In this document: positions 8,604 through 27,120 of the stretch, one piece after another | Position numbering within the stretch: position 1 is the stretch's first letter | Layout: each line of letters opens with the position of its first letter | DNA from: a virus | DNA: 64,000 nucleotides | Direction: 5' to 3' (one strand) | IMG/VR virus record: IMGVR_UViG_3300043411_001639 | Coordinates: 62,001-126,000 of that record | Made by a program: the position numbers and the translations under genes | The notes under the pieces: generated by a model | What the model was told of the DNA's origin: nothing | The model's input: the letters and a program-made list of their open reading frames with translations, nothing else | Database searches by the model: none

Positions 8604-10793
8604 ATGTTCTTAGAGATCTTAAAGAAGCATATTACTGATCATGGATTATACTGTTTGCCATTGGAAGGTACATTAGAAGGTGCTTGTAGTTGTGGGTCTA
8701 AAACCTGTACAAGCAGAGGAAAGCATCCTACAAAGCGTTTTTTCTGGAGTTATTCATCAAGAAATGAAAAACAGAAAGTAACTGGATGGTTTGATAACTG
8801 TCCTAATCCACACAATATTGGGGTTTTAACAGGAAGGAAATCAAAGATCAATGGAAAATATCTAGTTGTAATTGACATTGATTATGCATGTCCAGAATTA
8901 GTAGAAAAACTACCGCCAACATTTTCTTATAAAACAGGGAAACCAGACGGTATACATCTTTGGTTCTGGAGTGATAAAAGAATTAGCAACTCAGTAGGAC
9001 TGTTAGCACCAAAAGTTGATATCAGAGGTGAAAATGGCTATGTTGTTGTTCCTCCAAGTAGGCATCAAACAGGAAACATCTACACAGTTTTAAATGACTT
9101 AGAAATAGCAGACTTGCCTGTTTGGGTATCTGAAATACTTGAAACTAATAGAAAATCTATCAAACGTGATTCCAAAGAACAGAAAACTGTTAAATCAAAG
9201 GCTAATAAATCAAAACTACCATATGAAAACTGGACAGTTCTTGATGTTGATCAGATTGAAGAAAAACTAGAACTAGGAGAATTAATCCCAGTTGGGCAAA
9301 GAAACAACATTGTTTTTAAGTTGTTGACTGCTAAAAAAATATCAGGTGTAGAAGACGAACAACTTATAGAATATGCAATAGGAATAGCTTCAAGAGTTGA
9401 AGATCCAGAATCATATTCAGAACAAGAACTTCATGCGTCCATAAGATCTGTTGGTAAAATAACGACATACAAAAAAGACATTACTAAATTCAATGAAAAC
9501 TATGTTAAGTTTATTAAAAATACTTTTTATACTCAGAAACAACTTGATGTAGAGTTATACACAAAAACTCTAGATGATTCAGACAATGAATTTTTTGGTC
9601 TACTAACCCCAGAACAAGATAAGAAGAAGTTTGTTCTGTTAAAAGATTTGATGGAACTAAGATTAAACTGGTTGAAACAAGTTAAAGGATTAGAGCATGT
9701 TTCAAAATATGGAACAAATAGTTTCGCAGAAAAACTAATATTACTTGAGTTTAACAAACACAGAACAAGTAAGAACTGTTTTTGGAATGTAAATTTTGAG
9801 AAAGTAACTGAACAATTAAACCACATCATGCAAACAACATCTCAAACCACTAACAATATGTTCAAAGGAACTCCAGTAGAAGTTTATGTTCTCCCTTCTG
9901 TGACAACTATTTTTGTTACAGATTTCTTTAAAGAAGAAGTATCAGGAGGAGCGGAATTAACAACACAAGCTATTATAGATGTTTGTCCAACGGAACAAAA
10001 AAACTCTATAGCTAAAATTCATTCAGTTTCACTAACACCAAAAATGTTAACTAACTTATCAAAAAGACTGATAAAACCAACTTTGGTTTTCTGCAACTTT
10101 AGTCAAGTAGATGGGGATGTACTAAAGCATCTTGCTGAAACAAAGTGTTTAAACTATGTTGTAGTTGAATATGATTTAAAATACTGCGCCTATAGATCAG
10201 AACAACTTCATTTTCTTCAAACAAACGGAGCAGGTTGTGACTGCAAAGAAACTCAACACGGTAAAACAATGGCTAAGTTTTATTCTTCAGCTTCACATGT
10301 TTTTTGGATGGCTGAGAAACAGATAGAACTGTATGAAACTAAACTAGGGATAAAATTAAAAAACAAATCAACAGTTCTTAGTAGTTGTTTTACTGATGAA
10401 CAACTAGATCTGTTACTAACCCTTGGTAAAACCTATCTTAAAGAAAACAAACTAGCAGTCCTTGGTTCTGGAAGTTGGATCAAGGGAATAAAAGAGTCTG
10501 AAGCATGGTGTAAGGTACACAACAAATCCTATGCAACAATCCCGGCACTTGATTATTTTAGTTTTATTAAAAAACTTGCAGGGTTTAAAGGATTGGTATT
10601 CAAACCTCTTGACTATGACACTTGTCCAAGGCTAGTAATTGAAGCAAAGATCTTAGGTCTTGACTTATATCTTAACAACAATGTACTCCATAAAAATGAA
10701 AGTTGGTTTCAAAAGACACCTGAAGAGATAGTATTATATCTAAAAAACAATAAAATTATGTTTTGGAATTACTTGTTGGACAAACAGTGCTAA
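8604..10793 (+). CDS. Primase-polymerase (AEP) fused to glycosyltransferase-like domain
   Basis: Residues 1-185 form a bifunctional primase/polymerase domain. They contain a CSCG...GKHP entry motif, NIGVLTG, the metal pair D91-I-D93, H118 (HLWFW) and D139 in VDIRGENGYVVVPPS. A helical PriCT-like linker follows (about 210-300). From about residue 430 the chain changes to a GT-B/GT4-type pattern: VFVTDFF, SGGAELTTQAI (447-457), WIKG (625-628) and DTCPRLVIEAKILG (672-685). The last keeps an acidic-x7-Glu arrangement (D672, E680). It is one uninterrupted frame with a strong ribosome-binding site. A helicase domain, often found in this position, is absent. The target of the sugar-transfer domain is unknown. 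Confidence 0.8.
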   Translation: MFLEILKKHITDHGLYCLPLEGTLEGACSCGSKTCTSRGKHPTKRFFWSYSSRNEKQKVTGWFDNCPNPHNIGVLTGRKSKINGKYLVVIDIDYACPELVEKLPPTFSYKTGKPDGIHLWFWSDKRISNSVGLLAPKVDIRGENGYVVVPPSRHQTGNIYTVLNDLEIADLPVWVSEILETNRKSIKRDSKEQKTVKSKANKSKLPYENWTVLDVDQIEEKLELGELIPVGQRNNIVFKLLTAKKISGVEDEQLIEYAIGIASRVEDPESYSEQELHASIRSVGKITTYKKDITKFNENYVKFIKNTFYTQKQLDVELYTKTLDDSDNEFFGLLTPEQDKKKFVLLKDLMELRLNWLKQVKGLEHVSKYGTNSFAEKLILLEFNKHRTSKNCFWNVNFEKVTEQLNHIMQTTSQTTNNMFKGTPVEVYVLPSVTTIFVTDFFKEEVSGGAELTTQAIIDVCPTEQKNSIAKIHSVSLTPKMLTNLSKRLIKPTLVFCNFSQVDGDVLKHLAETKCLNYVVVEYDLKYCAYRSEQLHFLQTNGAGCDCKETQHGKTMAKFYSSASHVFWMAEKQIELYETKLGIKLKNKSTVLSSCFTDEQLDLLLTLGKTYLKENKLAVLGSGSWIKGIKESEAWCKVHNKSYATIPALDYFSFIKKLAGFKGLVFKPLDYDTCPRLVIEAKILGLDLYLNNNVLHKNESWFQKTPEEIVLYLKNNKIMFWNYLLDKQC

Positions 10794-10803
10794 ACTCACT
10801 GGT

Positions 10804-11667
10804 ATGAGTGAAATTGTAATCGTAGATACTAAAGTTCATCTACCTGTTCTTAGTTCAATTCCAGAAGAAGAAATGAAAAAACATGTTAGTTATTCAGAAC
10901 TGGCTGTTTGGGCAGGTTGTAACTTCAGACACAAGTTGAAATATGTTGACAAAATATCTCTTGATAAACCATCAGAACATACTTTGTTTGGACATGCAGG
11001 ACATGATATATTACAAGAGTATTTAAAAACTAGAGAGATTAAAGATCTAGATAAAGCAGTTGAAGCATTAACATTAAAATTTGCTGAAAACAACATAGTT
11101 GTAAAACAATCGGAATTCCAAGATACTCTTAAGCCTATCATGGAAGAAATACCTTCCTTCTTGGAAGAACATTTTAAAGACTGGACATTTGTTAGTTCAG
11201 AAGAACAGTTGTTTGAAACTATCAGTGGTACTACAAATGAAAGATCATTTAAAGGATTCGTTGACGGAATCATTCGTGTACCAAAATCATCTAGATTAAA
11301 AACAGGTAAATCAGATGAGTATGAGTATCATATTATTGACTGGAAATTTTGTGGATGGGGTTGGGATTTTAAAAAGAAAACAGATCCAATAAAAATCATG
11401 CAGTTGAGTTTATATAAACATTTTGTTGCACAAAAAATGAACATTGATCCAAAAGAAATAAGATGTGGTTTTGTTTTGCTAAAAAGACTACCAAAAAAAG
11501 GTGGTTCAAGATGTGAACTAGTTCCAATTAGTGTTGGTCCCAAAACAACCGAGTTTGCTTTAACTACACTTAAAACGATGTTGTTTTATGGTAAAAAAGG
11601 ACTATATCCAAAGAACAAAAACAACTGTTTGTATTGTGAATATAAAAACACTACTCACTGTCCTTGA
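10804..11667 (+). CDS. RecB/Cas4-like PD-(D/E)XK nuclease with Fe-S cysteines
   Basis: The 287-residue protein has the order expected for a Cas4/AddB-type nuclease: VSYSELAVWAGCNF with C39, the GHAGH histidines (64, 67), GFVDG (D154) and the catalytic IIDWK (D179, K181). A C-terminal CLYCEYKNTTHC carries C275, C278 and C286. With C39 these can hold a 4Fe-4S cluster. Such enzymes trim or resect DNA ends. It starts 10 bases after the primase fusion, so a shared replication or recombination role is likely. Confidence 0.85.
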   Translation: MSEIVIVDTKVHLPVLSSIPEEEMKKHVSYSELAVWAGCNFRHKLKYVDKISLDKPSEHTLFGHAGHDILQEYLKTREIKDLDKAVEALTLKFAENNIVVKQSEFQDTLKPIMEEIPSFLEEHFKDWTFVSSEEQLFETISGTTNERSFKGFVDGIIRVPKSSRLKTGKSDEYEYHIIDWKFCGWGWDFKKKTDPIKIMQLSLYKHFVAQKMNIDPKEIRCGFVLLKRLPKKGGSRCELVPISVGPKTTEFALTTLKTMLFYGKKGLYPKNKNNCLYCEYKNTTHCP

Positions 11668-11679
11668 AAGAAAACTACT

Positions 11680-12696
11680 ATGTTGATATCTTCTTATACT
11701 ACTTCAAGAAATGCAATAGAACTAAACTATCCTATCAGAGAATCTGTTAAATCATTATTAGGATTTTCCGACGAGGTAATAGTGTTTGATACTTCAGGAA
11801 CAACTCATACAGTTGATGAATTAACCAAATGTTTTAAACTAGAACCCAAAGTTAAAATCGTACATGAACCTTGGGATTGGACAGTTAAAAATTTTGGTGT
11901 TTTAGACGGTCAATCAAAAGCACAAGCTAGAAATTTGTGTAAAGGTCATATTCTATGGCAGAATGATAGTGATGAAATTGTTCATGAACAACATCAAAGT
12001 TTTATCAGACCTTTAATTGAAAGTTATAAAAACTGGGATAGCTATAGTTTGATAGGATTACCTGTTGTTGAGTTTTGGGGTTCTAGTGGGAAAGCTAGAA
12101 TTGATATAAATCCTTGGAAATGGAGAATTTCAATAAATGACAAAAAAATTACTCACGGTATTCCCGGTAGATATAGATTTTATGACAAAGATGGCTTGTT
12201 ATTTGCCAAACCCGGAACAGATGGTTGTGATTATATATACTCTGACTCACTAGTTCCTGTTCCTTGTGACTTGTCTGTTATGCATTATACAGATAGAGTG
12301 TTTGGTTTACAACAAGCTGCTATAACAAATGAAAAAGCTGCACACTTGTATGAAGGTTGGTTTAATATTATGTTGGCTGATACTCCAGGTGTGTTCCATT
12401 ATAGTTGGTGGAATATTGAAAGAAAAATAAAACACTATAGAGAGTTTTGGACTAAGTTCTGGCCGTCACTTTATAATGAATCAGTTGACGAAAGACAAAA
12501 TCCATTTTTCCCTGGAATGTTGTGGTCAGAAGTTTCTGATCAACAAATAAAACAAAAAGCACAAGAGTTAGAACAAGGTACAGGTGGTTGGATATTTCAT
12601 AAACCTTGGGATGGTACCAAACATTGTTCTATTAAACAAGTTAATATGGAACATCCAAAGTTTATCAAAGACTGGATAAGAACTATCAATGCTTAA
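11680..12696 (+). CDS. Glycosyltransferase, GT-A (GT2-like)
   Basis: The N-terminus ISSYTTSRNAIELNYPIRES and the following EVIVFDTSGTT match the nucleotide-binding start of GT2-like enzymes that begin synthesis or extend core glycans. The acidic motif WQNDSDE near residue 90 is the likely metal/nucleotide-sugar site. The C-terminal half contains many Trp residues and is probably the acceptor domain. It is the first gene of a chain of overlapping glycan genes. Donor and acceptor cannot be read from the sequence. Confidence 0.8.
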   Translation: MLISSYTTSRNAIELNYPIRESVKSLLGFSDEVIVFDTSGTTHTVDELTKCFKLEPKVKIVHEPWDWTVKNFGVLDGQSKAQARNLCKGHILWQNDSDEIVHEQHQSFIRPLIESYKNWDSYSLIGLPVVEFWGSSGKARIDINPWKWRISINDKKITHGIPGRYRFYDKDGLLFAKPGTDGCDYIYSDSLVPVPCDLSVMHYTDRVFGLQQAAITNEKAAHLYEGWFNIMLADTPGVFHYSWWNIERKIKHYREFWTKFWPSLYNESVDERQNPFFPGMLWSEVSDQQIKQKAQELEQGTGGWIFHKPWDGTKHCSIKQVNMEHPKFIKDWIRTINA

Positions 12697-13585
12697 TACT
12701 ATCATATTCTCAAAAGATAGAGCTTGTCAACTTGAAGCTTTGTTAAGAACTTGGACAAATAATGTAACAGGAGTAGGAAATCTTGGTAAAACTCACATTA
12801 TCTGGAAAGCTTCAACTCCTGATTTTGAATTGGGATATCAAAAACTAATAGATTTATATCCTTGTTCAAAGCAGTTTAATTTTCTTAAAGAAGAATCATT
12901 TTCAGAACAAGTTTGTGAGTTGTTAGAAACATGTAACACAGCAACAGATCTTGTTATGTTTCTTGTTGATGATATCATGTTTAAAGAACCTTGGTGGCTA
13001 GACAAAGAACTAGAAGATCTATTAGTGATGAGTAAAGAAATATTTTGTTTATCACTCAGACTATCAGAACATATCAATTACTGTTATCCTACTTCATCAA
13101 TAGTTACCAAACCCTCCAGTTATACAGTATTGATAAATGGTTATTCTTGTGGTAATTTAGCTGAATTTGAATGGAAACATGGAGAAGGTGATTGGGGCTA
13201 TCCAATGTCACTAGATGGTCATGTGTTCAGAGCTAGTTTCATTAGACCAATAGTTTTTAAACTAAGAAAGTATTTTAACAATCCAAACTCACTTGAAAGT
13301 GTTCTATCAGAAACCTGTAACAGAGGAGTCTTTGATTATCTTCCTAAAATGTTATGTTATCATTTCAACAGTAAAATCATAAATATCCCAGCTAATAGAG
13401 TTCAAACCACTTGTCTTAACAAACACAATGACAACCTAACTCCAGAAGAACTTAACAAGTTGTTTGTAGAACTAAATCAAGTTGTTGATACTGACAAATT
13501 TTTTAAAATTAAAAACAACAGTCCTCACATGAACCTACCACTGGTATTACATGATGATCCCAGATCGGATATTATGTACCAATGA
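12689..13585 (+). CDS. Glycosyltransferase-like protein (GT-A)
   Basis: The start NTIIFSKDRACQLEALLRTW and the central MFLVDDIMF (acidic pair near residue 93) mark a GT-A glycosyltransferase-like protein of 298 residues. This phage- and virus-associated group has no assigned sugar. The gene overlaps the preceding one by eight bases and the next by four (ATGA), so the three are translationally coupled. Confidence 0.7.
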   Translation: MLNTIIFSKDRACQLEALLRTWTNNVTGVGNLGKTHIIWKASTPDFELGYQKLIDLYPCSKQFNFLKEESFSEQVCELLETCNTATDLVMFLVDDIMFKEPWWLDKELEDLLVMSKEIFCLSLRLSEHINYCYPTSSIVTKPSSYTVLINGYSCGNLAEFEWKHGEGDWGYPMSLDGHVFRASFIRPIVFKLRKYFNNPNSLESVLSETCNRGVFDYLPKMLCYHFNSKIINIPANRVQTTCLNKHNDNLTPEELNKLFVELNQVVDTDKFFKIKNNSPHMNLPLVLHDDPRSDIMYQ

Positions 13586-14568
13586 ATGTTTTAGTGGTAG
13601 GAGGTGCAGGGTTTATAGGTTCTCACTTGGTTGAAGAGTTGTTGGAAACCCATTCAAACAGAGATCAACATCATGTATCAATAGTTGATGATCTTTCAAC
13701 AGGTTCTTTAAAGAATATTGAACATTTAAATTATTTTTCAAAATATAATATTGATCATAATAAAAACTATTCAAACTGTACTTTGCATAAAGAAAAAATC
13801 AATGATTATATTAAAGATCGTCCTAATGCTAAGTTTGACTATGTGTTTAGTCTGGCAGCCCAAACCAGTGTACCAGAAACAGTAGAAGATCCTGTAGGTT
13901 CAAACCATAAGAACGTTACAGAAACACTTGAGTTTGTTGATTGGGTTTTTACTAAATGTAAACCGAAGAAGTTTATCTGGTTTAGTTCAAGTGCTGTGTA
14001 TGGTAACAACATGTCTGTTAAAGAAAATCAACCATTCAAAAACAGCACTGTTAGTCCATATGCAATACAGAAAAAACTAATAGAGGATTACATAGAGTTT
14101 TATAGTAATAAACACAGAATACAATCCTTAGTTTTTAGACCTTTTAACGTGTTTGGAACAAGACAAAATCCTGATGGAAAATATCCAAACTTAATCTCTA
14201 GTTGGGGTAAAGCACTAGCAACTAATCAACCATTAATCATTTATGGGTCTGGAGAACAAAAAAGAGATTTTGTTTCTGTCAAACAACTAGTAAAAAAGGT
14301 TTTATCAGATGTTTCAGTCACTGATTATCCAACTTTTATTGTCAAAGATATTGGAACAGGATTTAATTTTAGTGTAAATGAGATTTTATCTTTAGTAAGA
14401 AGTGAAATTGATTCTTGCCTTTTAGTAAAGTTTTTTCCTGAAAGACTTGGAGAAGTTAAAGAAACTTTGTCTGCAACAAAACTAGATCATTCTTCAAACA
14501 AACTTAAAATATGTAAAGAGATAGTTGATACTCTAGAATGGTATATGGTAAACTATGCAGTTTCATGA
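13582..14568 (+). CDS. NAD-dependent epimerase/dehydratase (extended SDR)
   Basis: Residues 7-13 carry the NAD motif GGAGFIG. The catalytic set is SSSAVYG (about 135-141) and Y160-x3-K164 (SPYAIQKK). RPFNVFGTRQNP is the substrate-loop signature of UDP-hexose 4-epimerases and related dehydratases. The length (328) is usual. It probably makes an activated sugar for the adjacent transferases. Epimerase and dehydratase activity cannot be told apart here. Confidence 0.88.
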   Translation: MNVLVVGGAGFIGSHLVEELLETHSNRDQHHVSIVDDLSTGSLKNIEHLNYFSKYNIDHNKNYSNCTLHKEKINDYIKDRPNAKFDYVFSLAAQTSVPETVEDPVGSNHKNVTETLEFVDWVFTKCKPKKFIWFSSSAVYGNNMSVKENQPFKNSTVSPYAIQKKLIEDYIEFYSNKHRIQSLVFRPFNVFGTRQNPDGKYPNLISSWGKALATNQPLIIYGSGEQKRDFVSVKQLVKKVLSDVSVTDYPTFIVKDIGTGFNFSVNEILSLVRSEIDSCLLVKFFPERLGEVKETLSATKLDHSSNKLKICKEIVDTLEWYMVNYAVS

Positions 14569-15307
14569 AAAATTAGGGGTTTTAATTCCCGTACATAACG
14601 CAGAAGAAACAATAGTAAGAAGTCTTCGCTCCGTAGTTGATGCTTGTAAATTATCAAAGGTTGAAACCAAGATAGTAGTTGTTTTAAACGGCTGTACAGA
14701 TAACACTCTTATAGAGGTAATGAATTTTAGTGAATCTCAAACAAAAGATTCAAACATTGTTATTGAAGAAACATTTTCTGAAAAAGGTCTTGTTCCTGCT
14801 TTAAACAAGGGATTACAATCTCTAATTAACAAGGGTTGTTCATTAATAGCAAGACAAGACGCAGATGATAGTTGGCATAAAAACAAAATAGTTAAACAAC
14901 TAGCTTATCTTCAAGAACATAAAACTGTAGATATTTTAGGTACACAGATCAACTTAGTAACACCTGGAACATGGGAAACATTGGAAAGAACTCATAACCC
15001 AACAACTCATGTAAACATAAAAGAATGGTTACTAAGAGGACATAATCCTATAGCTCATCCTTCTGTTGTGTTTAGAACATCAATTTTGAATAAACTTGGT
15101 GGTTATCAAGACTTGTTTCCAATGGCAGAAGATCTATGGTTATGGAGCAGTGCTGTTATAGCAGGATATAATCTTGCTAATCTTCCAGATGTTCTTGTTG
15201 ATTATACCAGTGTTCACAATCCAAACTATAATCCAAAGTCACCAAAGGTATTGGCAAATTGTTTGGGGAATATATTAGGAGCTCATTTGAATGAATCACA
15301 ACAATAA
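14555..15307 (+). CDS. Glycosyltransferase family 2
   Basis: The 250-residue protein has the GT2 start GVLIPVHNAEETIVRSLRS, then VVVLNGCTDNT and a metal-binding RQDADDSW (near residue 107). The later PMAEDLWLW matches the ED base region of inverting GT2 enzymes. It overlaps both neighbours by 14-17 bases, in keeping with tight coupling along the island. Confidence 0.88.
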   Translation: MQFHEKLGVLIPVHNAEETIVRSLRSVVDACKLSKVETKIVVVLNGCTDNTLIEVMNFSESQTKDSNIVIEETFSEKGLVPALNKGLQSLINKGCSLIARQDADDSWHKNKIVKQLAYLQEHKTVDILGTQINLVTPGTWETLERTHNPTTHVNIKEWLLRGHNPIAHPSVVFRTSILNKLGGYQDLFPMAEDLWLWSSAVIAGYNLANLPDVLVDYTSVHNPNYNPKSPKVLANCLGNILGAHLNESQQ

Positions 15308-16040
15308 ACGAATTGCCTTGATGTTGATTGCTACGAACAAATATACCGACTTTGTTAAACCATTACTAAAATCAGTTGATAAATGGTTTTTAACAGATCA
15401 TAAAGTTGATGTGTATTTGTTTACAAACTTAGTTGATGAAAAAAGAGTGATTGACCTATTAGAAGAATATAGACCTATCAACAGAGTATCATTAGCGGTT
15501 AGAGAAATAGAGCATCAACCTTGGCCTATGATGACTTTATTGAGATACAACATGTTTAAGTCAATAGAACAAGAACTAGAAGGAAACTATGACTATATTT
15601 TCTACTCAGACGTAGATATGTTATTTGTTGATAAAGTTGGTGATGAGGTACTAGGTACAGGATTAACTGCTACTGTTCATCCTGGGTTTTACAACAAACC
15701 AAGAGAACAGTTTACCTATGAAACTAATCCTCTCAGTTACGCCTATATCCAACCAGACCAAGGAAGATTTTATTTTGCTGGAGGGTTTCAAGGTGGAACT
15801 ACTGAGTCATTTTTAACAGCTATCAGAGAATGTTCTAGTGGTGTTACTGCTGATCTTTCAAATAGAATCATAGCTGTTTGGCAAGATGAGTCACACTGGA
15901 ACAGATACCTTAGTGACTATAAAGGAAAATTAACTAAGTTGTCTCCTAGCTACTGTTTTCCTGAATCTTGGAATCATCTACCATTCCAAAGAAAACTGCT
16001 AGCACTAGACAAAGACCATAAAGAATTTAGGAAAGAATAA
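15291..16040 (+). CDS. GT6 family glycosyltransferase (ABO/alpha-1,3-galactosyltransferase-like)
   Basis: The 249-residue protein carries the GT6 signatures in order: YSDVDMLF with DVD at 107-109, TVHPGFY (130-132), FYFAGGFQGG (162-169), DESHWNRY (199-206) and LSPSYCFPESW. GT6 enzymes are retaining transferases that add Gal or GalNAc in alpha-1,3 linkage to a galactosyl acceptor. Vertebrate forms use DXD for metal, whereas most bacterial forms have NXN. This one has DXD, as reported for a GT6 of cyanophage P-SSM2. No membrane anchor is present. Confidence 0.9.
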   Translation: MNHNNKRIALMLIATNKYTDFVKPLLKSVDKWFLTDHKVDVYLFTNLVDEKRVIDLLEEYRPINRVSLAVREIEHQPWPMMTLLRYNMFKSIEQELEGNYDYIFYSDVDMLFVDKVGDEVLGTGLTATVHPGFYNKPREQFTYETNPLSYAYIQPDQGRFYFAGGFQGGTTESFLTAIRECSSGVTADLSNRIIAVWQDESHWNRYLSDYKGKLTKLSPSYCFPESWNHLPFQRKLLALDKDHKEFRKE

Positions 16041-16044
16041 TACA

Positions 16045-16668
16045 ATGGGATTTTACGATCAAACAGTTGAGTTAAAACAACTTAACACAGACAGAGTTGA
16101 ATGGTTTATAAGTTTGTGTAAAGATAAAAAAGTATTACATGTGGGCTGTGTAGATTGGCCTGTGTTTAATCCTGAGAGTAATTTACACATGACTCTTAGT
16201 AAACACACAAAGGAACTTGTAGGAGTTGATACAAACGTAGAAGGATTACAAGATTTACATGCATTTTGTGGTGGGAGATATCTAACAGAGTTAACGACTC
16301 TAGGTAAAGAGCAATTTGATGTTGTTCTAGTTCCAGAAACCATAGAACATGTTTTGAATGCTGGAGATTTCATGAAACAACTTATGTTGTTCTGTAAGTT
16401 TAAAACACTTGTCATCACAGCACCAAATGCTATGATGACTGAACCTTCTAAAGTATGGAACGATAGCAAGTATGACAAACTAGCTTCGGGTAAATGTCTG
16501 TTTACTGAGGTTGTACATCCAGATCATAAGTGTTGGTATAGTCCTTATACACTAATGAATCTCGTAAAAACTTGTTGTGGTGAACACTGGGAAATAGAAG
16601 AAGTAGGAACTCTCTGTAATACTTCAATGGTTTATGTAAAGGTAAAACAACGTGATGAAGAGTGGTAA
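16045..16668 (+). CDS. SAM-dependent methyltransferase-like protein (class I)
   Basis: The 207-residue protein has a Rossmann methyltransferase pattern: KKVLHVGCVDWP as motif I, ELVGVDTN as motif II and FDVVLVPETIEHV as motif IV/post-I. The Gly pattern of motif I is modified (HVGCVD instead of DxGxGxG). It is four bases downstream of the GT6 gene, so methylation of the glycan is a plausible role. The substrate is unknown. Confidence 0.7.
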   Translation: MGFYDQTVELKQLNTDRVEWFISLCKDKKVLHVGCVDWPVFNPESNLHMTLSKHTKELVGVDTNVEGLQDLHAFCGGRYLTELTTLGKEQFDVVLVPETIEHVLNAGDFMKQLMLFCKFKTLVITAPNAMMTEPSKVWNDSKYDKLASGKCLFTEVVHPDHKCWYSPYTLMNLVKTCCGEHWEIEEVGTLCNTSMVYVKVKQRDEEW

Positions 16669-17545
16669 CAGACCAATAAAAATACTTGTTCTTGGATCAA
16701 CGGGTATGGCAGGACATACTGTGTTCAAATATCTTAGTGAAAATCCATTGTTTGAAGTCTATGGTTATAAAAGATTTAATATTGCGGGTTATGTTGCTAT
16801 GGGTGATGGTATTCAAAAAACAATAGAAAATGTTACCTTCAATTTATACCAAATAGAACCTGATTATGTTATCAACTGTATAGGACTTATTAAACAACGT
16901 GAAGGAACTAAGCTAGTAGATCATTTAGAAACTAATGGTATGTTTCCTGTTTGGTTATCATCAACATTCCCAAGAGTCAAGATCATACACTTAAGTTCTG
17001 ATTGTGTGTTCTCAGGAACCTTACCAGTTGGTTCAGCCTATAAGACACATGATTTTACTGATGCTTGTGACAACTATGGAATATCAAAAGCAATGGGTGA
17101 GAACTGTTGGAAACTAGGAGCTATGGTTCTTAGAACTTCAATCATAGGAATTGAGGAACAGAACAACAAAGGATTGGTTGAGTGGGTATTGAGAGAAAAT
17201 AAAGAAGTTCTTGATGGGTATACCAATCATTTATGGAATGGAGTATTAACAACTGAGTTAGCAAGAAAAATAGAACAGATTATAACTGAGGATAGGTTTG
17301 TTCCAGAACTATATCAACTAGGTTCACCAGAACTTGTATCAAAATATCGGTTAGTTGAAATGATAACAGCAATGTTATCTGATTTTGAAAAAACACAGTT
17401 CAAAAAAACCGTTAAACCAGTTTCAAAGCATTTTCCTATAAACAGAGTTCTGAAATCTGATTTCTCTGATGTAAAACCATTGTTTGAACAGTTTCTAGAT
17501 CACAAAAACTTCATGTTAAAACACAATATGGACAAGAGACCATGA
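16655..17545 (+). CDS. RmlD-like sugar-nucleotide reductase (SDR)
   Basis: The frame starts at ATG 16655 (GTG 16652 is an alternative). IKILVLGSTGMAGHTVF is the NAD(P)-binding start. HLSSDCVFSG and YGISKAMGEN give the Ser and Tyr-x3-Lys catalytic residues in the pattern of dTDP-4-dehydrorhamnose reductases and of FnlB/WbjC-type reductases. Together with the CapD/FnlA-like dehydratase 0.8 kb downstream, it could complete a deoxysugar such as a FucNAc- or rhamnose-type donor. That pairing is inference. Confidence 0.82.
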   Translation: MKSGNRPIKILVLGSTGMAGHTVFKYLSENPLFEVYGYKRFNIAGYVAMGDGIQKTIENVTFNLYQIEPDYVINCIGLIKQREGTKLVDHLETNGMFPVWLSSTFPRVKIIHLSSDCVFSGTLPVGSAYKTHDFTDACDNYGISKAMGENCWKLGAMVLRTSIIGIEEQNNKGLVEWVLRENKEVLDGYTNHLWNGVLTTELARKIEQIITEDRFVPELYQLGSPELVSKYRLVEMITAMLSDFEKTQFKKTVKPVSKHFPINRVLKSDFSDVKPLFEQFLDHKNFMLKHNMDKRP

Positions 17546-18384
17546 CAATAAAACTATATAGTATTTGTTTTAACAGACCTGATTTAATGCAGATGCAGGT
17601 TGAATCATTCAAGTTCTTTCTTAAGGACAAGCACGAAATAATATTTGTTAACAATGCACCAACAGACAACGTAGCTACTGAGATAAAAAAAGTAGCTGAC
17701 AGTCTGGAGTGCAGATCAATCAGAGTTCAGACAAATTTAGGTAACAATTGGCTTCCAGGTAAAAATCATGCTGATGCCATGAATCTAGTATTGAGAACAG
17801 AGTTTACCAAAGACCAAGGTACTGACTTAGTAGGATTCATGGATAATGATTTCTTTATGGTACTTCCTTTCTCTATTGAAGAACATATGAAAAATGGAGT
17901 AACAATGTCAGGTGTAAAACAAAGAAGAGAGAACTTCTACTATCTTACACCAAATTTATTATTCATGAATAAATCATTGTTACCTAATATTCAAAACATA
18001 GATCTTGAAGGAGTTCATATCAATGGAGTAGCTCTTGATACAGGTGGTGGACTGTATAACTACTTTGAAAAATATCCTCAAGTTAAAGCTGGAGTAAAAG
18101 GAATAGCACATACATGGGTTATGACTTCTGACAGACACAACACTCATAACATTCCAGATGAATTAATAGCAGAGTATAAAGATGACTATGTGTTAGAACT
18201 ATATCAAAACTCTTTCTTGCATTACTGTAGATCATCAAACTGGGATCAACAGAGTTATGATTTTCATAAAGAAAAGACAGGGTTTGTAAGGAAATTTGTG
18301 TATGGTTCAATGAGTGGTTTAATCCACCCAAAGAAACTAGATTTCCAGATTGTTGATTCAATATTTGGATGGGATGGACTATGA
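17542..18384 (+). CDS. Glycosyltransferase-like protein (GT-A)
   Basis: The 280-residue protein begins IKLYSICFNRPDLMQMQVES and has IIFVNNAP and VGFMDNDFF (DND metal-type motif near residue 103). A Gly-rich ALDTGGGLYNYF segment (about 167-178) may touch the acceptor. This is a GT-A architecture of a phage-type group without known specificity. It is coupled to both neighbours by ATGA overlaps. Confidence 0.7.
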   Translation: MTIKLYSICFNRPDLMQMQVESFKFFLKDKHEIIFVNNAPTDNVATEIKKVADSLECRSIRVQTNLGNNWLPGKNHADAMNLVLRTEFTKDQGTDLVGFMDNDFFMVLPFSIEEHMKNGVTMSGVKQRRENFYYLTPNLLFMNKSLLPNIQNIDLEGVHINGVALDTGGGLYNYFEKYPQVKAGVKGIAHTWVMTSDRHNTHNIPDELIAEYKDDYVLELYQNSFLHYCRSSNWDQQSYDFHKEKTGFVRKFVYGSMSGLIHPKKLDFQIVDSIFGWDGL

Positions 18385-19418
18385 CATTTATACCAGAACT
18401 AGTAGGTGAAAAAATATTGATTTTTGGAGGAGCAGGTTCACTAGGAACTAAACTCTGTCAGACATTTCTCTCAAAAAGAAAAAATCAAGTTTATTCTTGT
18501 TCAAGAGATGAAGCTAAACAATGGCAACTAAAACAATTGTTCAGTCAACAAGACAGAGAGTTATTAACTACTGGAATCTGTGACATCAGAGATATCAGAC
18601 AGGTTGAGTCAATTATATTTGCTATTAAACCAAGCATTATTATAATAGCTTCCGCTATGAAACAGGTTGACACTTGTGAAGCATTTCCGTATGAATCTGT
18701 TAAAACTAACGTTGATGGAATAAATAATATACTAGAAATAGTAAGGAAATATTCAGACCTAGCAGATCAACAATATACCAAACGACTTACCGTTTGTTTT
18801 ATATCAACAGACAAAGCTTGTAGTCCAGTAAACACCTACGGAATGTGTAAGAGTATTGCTGAAAGACTAGTACAAAACCAAGCTGTTGAAAACAAAAAAG
18901 TGAAGTATCTCACAGTAAGATATGGTAACGTAGTAAACAGTAAAGGAAGTATAGTTCCACTGTTACAAGAACAACTTAAGAATCCTGGTTTTAATCTTAC
19001 TCTAACAGATCCAAGAATGACTAGGTTTATGATGACAATGGAAGAATCTGTTGAGTTAATCATTCAATCAATCTACTCAGGTTCATCAGGTGATATCTGG
19101 ATTCCTAAACTTGACTCAATGTCAATGTCAGATCTATTCCAGTGGTTTAGTAATAAACATACTAGGAAAGTTGAAATAACAGGCATTAGACCCGGCGAGA
19201 AAATTCATGAAGTATTATATAACCAAGATGAGTCAAGATATATTCAAGAGTTTTCTAGAGGCTCCAGGGCACCTTACTACGTCATCAATAAAAATAAACT
19301 GAGTGATACAAAAGGTTTTAAACTCCATGAGTTTTCTTCTGAACACAACGTGATATCACCAGAGGTTCTAGCTAACAGACTTGAAGAGTTTTTTAAATCT
19401 GGAAGTTATCAACGATGA
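18381..19418 (+). CDS. CapD/FnlA-like UDP-sugar 4,6-dehydratase (SDR)
   Basis: I choose ATG 18381 because it gives the ATGA overlap used throughout the island; ATG 18369 in the same frame adds four residues. The protein has the NAD motif FGGAGSLG, the STDKACSP active-site segment and TYGMCKSIAE (Tyr-x3-Lys). A late GIRPGEKIHEVL motif is typical of UDP-GlcNAc 4,6-dehydratases (FlaA1/CapD/FnlA). It would supply the keto intermediate for the RmlD-like reductase. It ends 8 bases before the convergent kinase-like gene. Confidence 0.88.
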   Translation: MTFIPELVGEKILIFGGAGSLGTKLCQTFLSKRKNQVYSCSRDEAKQWQLKQLFSQQDRELLTTGICDIRDIRQVESIIFAIKPSIIIIASAMKQVDTCEAFPYESVKTNVDGINNILEIVRKYSDLADQQYTKRLTVCFISTDKACSPVNTYGMCKSIAERLVQNQAVENKKVKYLTVRYGNVVNSKGSIVPLLQEQLKNPGFNLTLTDPRMTRFMMTMEESVELIIQSIYSGSSGDIWIPKLDSMSMSDLFQWFSNKHTRKVEITGIRPGEKIHEVLYNQDESRYIQEFSRGSRAPYYVINKNKLSDTKGFKLHEFSSEHNVISPEVLANRLEEFFKSGSYQR

Positions 19419-24526: not shown

Positions 24527-25903
24527 ATGCTCAAGAAGAAAATTTTAATGTTGTGCGATCATCCCTTGCATCCAAGTGGAGTAGGGATTCAATCAAAACT
24601 ATTAATTGACGGTTTAATAGCTACAGGTAAATATAGTTTCAGAGTTCTTGGTGGTGCCATCAAGCATGGAGACTATAACACAATCAAAGTAAATGAAGAC
24701 TTCTATGTAAAACCAGTTGATGGTTTTGGTAACAAACAGATGATTCATCAACTTCTCCTAACAGAACAACCAGATGCTATTCTAATCTTTACAGATCCAA
24801 GACAGTTTGTTTGGTTATGGGAGATGGAAGATGAAATAAAACAAATCTGTCCAATCCTATACTGGCACGTATGGGACAATGATCCATATCCAGCTTTTAA
24901 TACAGTGTGGTATGACAGTACAGAACTAATCAACTGTTTGTCTTATAAAACTTATAGTCTACTAAAACAGAACTACAAAGGCTCTGAAAAAGTAAATTAT
25001 GTTCCACATGCTTTCCCAAAAACTATGTTTTTCCCAATAGCGGAAACAACAGTCAACCAATATAAACGTAATCATTTTCAAGAAAAACATGACTGGTTTA
25101 AAGTTCTATGGGTAGCACGTAATGCTACAAGAAAATGTCCTTCAGATGTTATGTTAGCATGGAAGATATTCCTTGATCAACTTCAACAGCAACACGGTCA
25201 TAAAAATGCTGTGTTAGTTATGCATACAGATCCAACCGATATGGAAGGACCAAATCTGTTTGAAGTATCAGAACTACTAGGCTTAAAAGACAATGTTTGG
25301 TTTAGTCCAGCAAGAGTAGGGCATGAAGAAATGAACATTCTCTACAACATGTGTGATGTTGTAGTATCTTTAGCTAGAGAAGAAGGTTTTGGACTTCCTT
25401 TATTACAGGCTCTACAAGTAGGAAAACTAGTTGTTGCTCTTAAAACTGGAGGAATGACAAGACAAGTAGTAGATCATAGAACAGGGGTTGAATATGGGGT
25501 TGCCCTAGAACCTGTTGAAAGAAACTTGATAGGTAGTCAAGCTGTTCCATATATCTTCAGTGATATTGGATCAAAACAACAAACCGCTGATGGTTTATTA
25601 AAAATCTATAACATGCCAGTTAGTGAGAGACAACAACTAGGACAACTTGCGAGAGAGTATGTTGATGTTGAATTCAACTATGATAACATGATATCAACTT
25701 GGGATAAAACTATAGAATCAACTCTAGACAATTGGGCATATAACAAACCTGTTCAGTGGGAACTACAAGAAATAGGAATAGTAAATCATATTTTAGATGT
25801 ACAACATCAACTTCCACCTCAACAACAAGCTGCTACTTCAACACCTATTACTTCAAACACAGTTCAGAAACTAAAAATTAATCAACCAAGAGGTATCAAA
25901 TGA
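24527..25903 (+). CDS. Glycosyltransferase family 4 (GT-B, retaining)
   Basis: The 458-residue protein begins ILMLCDHPLHPSGVGIQSK, the GT4 Gly-rich N-lobe loop. The C-lobe has FKVLWVARNATRKCPSD, VVVSLAREEGFGLPLLQAL (the E-x7-E site) and VALKTGGMTRQV. The last 60 residues are Gln-rich and probably flexible. It overlaps the next GT4 gene by four bases; the pair may act in sequence on one glycan. Confidence 0.9.
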   Translation: MLKKKILMLCDHPLHPSGVGIQSKLLIDGLIATGKYSFRVLGGAIKHGDYNTIKVNEDFYVKPVDGFGNKQMIHQLLLTEQPDAILIFTDPRQFVWLWEMEDEIKQICPILYWHVWDNDPYPAFNTVWYDSTELINCLSYKTYSLLKQNYKGSEKVNYVPHAFPKTMFFPIAETTVNQYKRNHFQEKHDWFKVLWVARNATRKCPSDVMLAWKIFLDQLQQQHGHKNAVLVMHTDPTDMEGPNLFEVSELLGLKDNVWFSPARVGHEEMNILYNMCDVVVSLAREEGFGLPLLQALQVGKLVVALKTGGMTRQVVDHRTGVEYGVALEPVERNLIGSQAVPYIFSDIGSKQQTADGLLKIYNMPVSERQQLGQLAREYVDVEFNYDNMISTWDKTIESTLDNWAYNKPVQWELQEIGIVNHILDVQHQLPPQQQAATSTPITSNTVQKLKINQPRGIK

Positions 25904-27120
25904 CAACCAAGAAAACAGTTTTATTAAAAGGTCCATTGTTAACAAAGAGTGGATACGGAGTTCATGCAAGACAGATAGCTAGTTGGTTGCTTGGTCATCA
26001 AGATAGTTTTGATATTACAACTCAGATACTTCCTTGGGGAACAACTCCTTGGATTCTTGATCCCAATGAACAAATAGGACTCACAGGTTTTTGTGTTGGT
26101 CAACTAATTCAAGCAGCAAATAACAAGAAACAGTTCTATGATATTTCAATCCAGATACAACTCCCTAATGAATGGGAACCATTCGCTGCTGGATATAATG
26201 TTGGAGTAACTGCTGGAGTTGAAACAACAACCTGTAACCCTGCCTGGATTACTAAAATTAACCAAATGGATCTTGTTATAGTTCCTTCGGAATTTACCAA
26301 ACAAACATTTCTTGATACAGGGAAAGTAACAACTCCTATCCACGTAATAGGAGAATCCTATCCAGATTGTTTTGACGTTGAATGTTATAAAACAAAACTT
26401 GGATATAAACTAGATGAACTTGAAACAGATTTTAATTTTCTAGCAGTAGGGCTACTAACTGGAAACAATCCTGAAAATGATAGAAAAAACATTCAATATC
26501 TTTTGAAATGGTTCTCAGAAACATTTAAAGGAGTGAGTTCCAAGGTGGGATTAATAGTTAAAACTTCTGCTGGAAGACTAACTCACCTTGATAGAACCAT
26601 GGTACATAATGTCTTGAATAAAACTCTGATTGAAAACAAGCTGGTAGAACCAGGAGTAGTTGGACCTAAGTTTTACTTTCTTCACGGAGATCTAACTGAT
26701 CTAGAGATGAAAGAACTTTATTCTCATTATAAAGTAAAAGCACTTATCAACTGTTCAAAAGGTGAAGGTTTTGGTTTGCCTGTTCTTGAAGCAGCAGCTT
26801 CAAGACTTCCAGTATTAGCAACAAACTGGAGTGGTTATCTTGATTTTCTTAACAAAGGAAAGTTTATTAAGTTTGATTATAAACTTGATGGTATTCATCC
26901 TTCAAGAATTGATGGTGAGATATTTGTTGAAGGAGCTAAGTGGGCCAATCCAATTGATGAAGATGTAAAGAAAAAACTTTTGAAGTTCTATAATCAACCT
27001 GAGATTCCTCAACAATGGGCTAAAGAACTTCAAAAAACTATTCAATCCGAATACTCATCAAAAGCTGTTAGAAAACTCTATGACAATCTTTTATTAGACT
27101 TGTTTAACGGAGTAAATTAA
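25900..27120 (+). CDS. Glycosyltransferase family 4 (GT-B, retaining)
   Basis: The 406-residue protein has the N-lobe start LLKGPLLTKSGYGVHARQIA and the C-lobe motif NCSKGEGFGLPVLEAAASRL, holding E-x7-E. LPVLATNWSGYLDFL follows. It is similar in layout to the preceding GT4 but clearly diverged. It ends the continuous glycan block two bases before a small membrane protein gene. Confidence 0.9.
   Translation: MTTKKTVLLKGPLLTKSGYGVHARQIASWLLGHQDSFDITTQILPWGTTPWILDPNEQIGLTGFCVGQLIQAANNKKQFYDISIQIQLPNEWEPFAAGYNVGVTAGVETTTCNPAWITKINQMDLVIVPSEFTKQTFLDTGKVTTPIHVIGESYPDCFDVECYKTKLGYKLDELETDFNFLAVGLLTGNNPENDRKNIQYLLKWFSETFKGVSSKVGLIVKTSAGRLTHLDRTMVHNVLNKTLIENKLVEPGVVGPKFYFLHGDLTDLEMKELYSHYKVKALINCSKGEGFGLPVLEAAASRLPVLATNWSGYLDFLNKGKFIKFDYKLDGIHPSRIDGEIFVEGAKWANPIDEDVKKKLLKFYNQPEIPQQWAKELQKTIQSEYSSKAVRKLYDNLLLDLFNGVN

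Follow-up and report, generated by a model that had tools for sequence, protein, structure and literature searches.

The stretch of DNA analysed here, called the window, comprises 64,000 nucleotides of the IMG/VR virus record IMGVR_UViG_3300043411_001639. One of its reading frames appears to encode a primase and a sugar transferase in a single protein. This raises the question of whether DNA synthesis and sugar chemistry are coupled by this fusion or whether two neighbouring phage genes were joined while their products kept separate jobs.

One open frame spans a primase core and a GT-B domain

The predicted frame of 729 residues is present, as its layout below shows, and a strong Shine-Dalgarno-like sequence lies 5′ of it. 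The residues cited in the original prediction (D91, D93, H118, D139, SGGAELT at 447, WIKG at 625, D672 and E680) are all at their positions.

8604..10793, +, single open frame of 729 aa (primase core, linker and GT-B domain), ATG to TAA, without internal stops
8637..9125, +, catalytic domain of the AEP Prim-Pol (residues 12-174; PF09250, E=8.8e-27), containing D91/D93, H118 and D139
9288..9458, +, PriCT-1-like helical segment, residues 229-285 (PF08708, 16 bits; conserved motif)
9531..9791, +, end of the primase core, residues ~310-396, winged-helix-like (alignment, weak Foldseek matches)
9792..9869, +, Thr/Gln/Asn-rich linker forming the fusion joint, residues 397-422 (26 residues)
9870..10790, +, GT-B domain, by predicted fold a glycosyltransferase, residues 423-729 (AlphaFold2, Foldseek, family alignment)

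A joint alignment of the whole fusion placed primases onto the glycosyltransferase (GT) half; hence the two halves were folded separately.

A primase half without a helicase domain

The AEP primase-polymerase is intact, as had been claimed. The PF09250 Prim-Pol profile scores 94.9 bits over residues 12-174, against a gathering cut-off of 22.8, and the four catalytic residues are conserved at 90% or more in an alignment of 15 sequences. PriCT_1 (PF08708) scores below its cut-off of 21.1 at residues 229-285 (E=0.009), and the PxGxRN...LL motif of this PriCT-1-like segment is conserved in relatives. A winged helix is a tentative reading of residues 310-396, whose Foldseek matches to winged-helix proteins are weak (probability up to 0.44). 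Modelled with AlphaFold2, the primase half reaches a pLDDT of 82 and a pTM of 0.48, and its best fold match in the PDB is RSF1010 RepB′ (3h20; probability 1.00, E=1.8e-3, TM-score 0.29/0.39).

The core of about 396 aa is made up of AEP, PriCT-like and winged-helix-like parts with no helicase domain, and it resembles the helicase-free AEP primases. Such primases are a described class, in which RepE/RepS and PrimHYQ carry PriCT-1 and HTH (PMC5862659). The view that primases are usually fused to helicases must be qualified on this point. The accompanying claim, that no described primase-sugar transferase is known, agrees with our literature search, in which no primase-glycosyltransferase fusion was found; the word stem “glycosyl” is absent from two surveys of AEP primases.

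The C-terminal domain has a GT-B fold

Searched alone, the C-terminal domain has no match in Pfam, PHROG, NCBIfam or the PDB sequences. A degenerate DNA pattern derived from its motif DTxPRxxIEA...G drew 107 stretches from IMG/VR, and about 100 frames in these are relatives of the domain (phmmer E from 2e-69 to 1e-11). From an alignment of 67 sequences, AlphaFold2 built a model of pLDDT 94.6 and pTM 0.91. Modelled apart from the primase, the domain folds confidently as GT-B, a fold of two Rossmann-like domains, and its top Foldseek matches in the PDB are the GT-B/GT4-type glycosyltransferases Gtf3, SenB, PglA and BshA (E ~1e-6, probability 1.00).

The columns that are invariant in the 67-sequence alignment are all kept here, among them the two glycines of the GGAE loop, K627, D672, R676 and E680. 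Because the GT-B fold is matched and these residues are kept, the domain is, by its modelled fold, a glycosyltransferase, and it is probably catalytically active as judged from the alignment. The proposed GT-B/GT4-type assignment holds for the fold and for the GT4-type top matches, but not for the GT4 sequence profile or the E-x7-E motif. The latter is replaced by D672-x7-E680, with the D invariant across the family. Pfam GT4 matches in fused relatives fall in the other half of the protein, and by sequence profile the GT domain is outside GT4. A C...H...CxC pattern is also conserved in the N-terminal GT-B domain (residues 528-547, window about 10185-10244) and is possibly a zinc site.

Primase and GT are unfused in all relatives found

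The same primase family is carried by 22 other uncultured-phage contigs in IMG/VR, which were gathered with the GT patterns, with an alignment and a DNA pattern of the primase, and through the adjacent nuclease. None of these 22 primases is fused to the GT, which is the outcome of the search for the same fusion in related phages. The whole fusion used as a single-protein query against IMG/VR has no close relative either, and this record is the only one known to carry it. In 15 of the 22 contigs the GT has a gene of its own, at most 2.5 kb downstream of the primase; in 8 of those 15, the GT domain begins no more than 30 nt from the primase stop and is read in another frame. The start of the GT gene often coincides with the primase stop codon. 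The two genes are far apart in one phage (the contig of L114), and the remaining six contigs have no GT within the stretch fetched. The gene order primase, GT, PD-(D/E)XK nuclease and GT2 is common to the window and its relatives, with PhoH and structural genes upstream in some relatives, as in the window.

In L034, L085, L112-L114 and L133, the stand-alone primase has the same end point as the fused core. The core of L070, L071 and others runs into a different domain of about 200 aa without a Pfam match (L070:7663-8319, L071:3732-4388), which is a separate gene in L085 (L085:4251-4865) and was not detected in the window's record. Since the core is joined elsewhere to this other domain, its end is fusion-prone; here the attached gene is the GT.

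The GT family is usually joined to other glycosyltransferases

Among 198 distinct GT frames (raw counts, including kin), 95 are fused at the C-terminus to a relative of the window's GT2 (11680-12696), 20 are fused at the C-terminus to another domain (Pfam GT2 in the one tested, L020), 10 are fused at the N-terminus to a relative of the window's GT4 (25900-27120) and 72 stand alone. Only one is fused to a primase, namely the window's. Because the fusions are otherwise to GT2 and GT4, the usual partners of the GT are glycan-building enzymes. This repeated fusion with other glycosyltransferases points to a likely role of the GT in glycan assembly and not in DNA replication. Upstream of the GT, the most frequent neighbour is a family of GT4-like appearance, followed by the primase and then PhoH.

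The GT domain and one relative gave no tblastn match in 50,697 cultured phage records, and the whole fusion protein searched against phages and plasmids was matched in its primase part alone. The GT domain was found in 2 of 54 bacterial-genome stretches that match the GT motif, both of them MAG contigs, and the primase is in neither stretch. The greater novelty lies in the GT family, which neither Pfam nor PHROG matches and which the searches of cultured phages did not turn up.

The fused gene lies next to a glycan island

A glycan island had been predicted to begin after one nuclease gene, and the downstream genes are arranged in this way.

10804..11667, +, PD-(D/E)XK nuclease gene, a conserved neighbour (PF12705, E=2.7e-14; synteny)
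11680..12696, +, GT2-type glycosyltransferase (GT2a); 95 of the 198 distinct frames join a relative of it to the GT-B domain
12689..19418, +, rest of the glycan island: NAD-epimerases, GT2, GT6, RmlD-like and Polysacc_synt_2
25900..27120, +, GT4 gene; in 10 other frames a relative of it is the N-terminal fusion partner of the GT-B domain

The shared neighbourhood suggests that the nuclease and the GT form a conserved module. IMG/VR contains at least 566 relatives of the nuclease, and the GT is nearby in 36 of their 80 best loci (L124-L203). An IMP dehydrogenase-like (guaB-type) gene, recognized by eye, lies in or beside the GT/nuclease/GT2 module of L070, L071, L085 and L034 and is absent from that of the window. 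The island includes a GT6 family glycosyltransferase at 15291-16037 (PF03414, E=6e-47), the family of the ABO blood-group enzymes, which is, to our knowledge, uncommon in phages.

Outside the window, the first residues of translated frames in the same record, judged by eye, suggest a GroEL-like chaperonin (L208:1105-2751, − strand), an isoleucyl-tRNA synthetase-like frame of 993 aa (L204:13233-16211) and an MnmA-like tRNA-modification gene (L205:1464-2549). Searches of the 156.7-kb record, which may be a fragment, for DnaB, PolA and PolB were empty.

Is the joint genuine?

The two sides of the joint have similar GC, GC3 and codon use, and synteny is unbroken across it; for these reasons, an assembly that merged unrelated genomes into a chimera was judged unlikely and rejected. 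An internal start of the GT at the joint was also considered. Neither in-frame ATG (9828, 9858) follows a Shine-Dalgarno sequence, but this is weak evidence and not decisive, as such sequences precede only about 40% of the starts in this phage.

The main doubt about the fusion is that it might be only apparent, with two close-packed genes joined by a one-base error or a stop-loss error in the linker. Spurious joining would be easy, since the genes of the relatives are tightly packed in different frames. The layout of L034 (primase stop, short gap, GT start) is that of the window if split, stops occur in both other frames soon after the core end, and no relative is fused. However, the other window genes examined look intact, so a low error rate seems likely; ATG 9858 would be the weakest start among all 53 genes by anti-Shine-Dalgarno energy; and natural fusions of the GT family to other genes are common. 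The intact genes and the lack of a ribosome-binding site at the joint ATGs mildly favour a true fusion, and we regard an artefactual joint as unlikely, though it deserves to be taken seriously.

A probable fusion of two adjacent genes with separate jobs

Probably, two neighbouring phage genes became one frame in this lineage, while their products went on doing separate jobs. The kept synteny, the two intact active sites and the fusion-prone core end are evidence for a two-gene fusion. An ancestral operon of primase, GT, nuclease and GT2 would have had its primase and GT joined in this lineage. The N-terminal half would prime or extend phage DNA, and the C-terminal half, acting with the GT2 at 11680, would use a nucleotide sugar as donor and pass the sugar on to an acceptor in a glycan pathway that the phage encodes. 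The tether may link expression and dosage and fix the ratio of the two enzymes, and no coupled chemistry would be needed. Against separate jobs, a retained fusion could reflect selection for coupling.

The original prediction allowed, as speculation, for a coupling between DNA synthesis and sugar modification of DNA, which the data do not support. It seems very unlikely that the fused protein couples priming to sugar transfer at the fork, whether by glycosylating DNA or by having a nucleotide sugar gate priming. Base glycosylation of phage DNA at the fork could be argued from the physical tether between a primase-polymerase and a GT-B enzyme, as the DNA glucosyltransferases of phage T4 are likewise GT-B. 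However, these T4 enzymes are absent among the 50 Foldseek matches listed for the GT domain. In addition, the relatives of the GT are not joined to primases and are mostly joined to GT2 or GT4, the two genes are distant in one related phage, and the 156.7-kb record, possibly incomplete, has no match to a thymidylate synthase-type hydroxymethylase (PF00303). We give such DNA modification very little credence. An equally slim chance is left for the GT-B domain regulating the primase as a sensor of nucleotide sugars, or being catalytically idle: nothing beyond the fusion itself speaks for it, the GT is a separate protein in relatives, and the family-invariant residues are all kept, as expected of an active enzyme.

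We know of no precedent for the primase-GT architecture, in which parts already known are combined anew within one lineage. Its relatives allow a striking fusion to be read correctly, as a fusion-prone primase core joined to the next gene. They also expose an unlabelled GT-B family, widespread in uncultured phages and not found in cultured ones, whose repeated GT2 and GT4 fusions predict its partners in phage glycan synthesis. If the two-gene fusion is real in a living phage, the protein would offer a way to learn whether a sugar transferase tethered to a replication enzyme is tolerated by it or put to use.

Comparison with known systems

RepE/RepS and PrimHYQ (AEP-PriCT-1-HTH; PMC5862659) share with the primase half the AEP core with its DxD/H/D residues and the lack of a helicase, with the PriCT-1-like and winged-helix-like C-terminal parts as candidate counterparts, whereas here PriCT_1 is below the cut-off, the winged helix is weakly supported and a GT-B domain is appended. 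The RSF1010 RepB′ primase is alike in being the best PDB fold match, at a low TM-score, but is a plasmid protein without a GT. Gtf3 (3rhz), SenB (8jjq), PglA (8dqd) and BshA (5d01) have in common with the GT domain the fold, the GGAE loop, a conserved K in the C-domain and an acidic-x7-E motif; the GT domain differs from them in its ~10% identity, D-x7-E, lack of a Pfam GT4 match and its own C...H...CxC pattern. A T4-like DNA-glycosylating system differs in its accompanying hydroxymethylase, unmatched in this possibly incomplete record. The glycan-synthesis clusters of jumbo phages and cyanophages, proposed to diversify the outer polysaccharide, resemble the island in holding epimerases and several GT families in one cluster, but here the cluster borders on a primase gene that is fused to one of the cluster's glycosyltransferases (PMC7824862 for the clusters).
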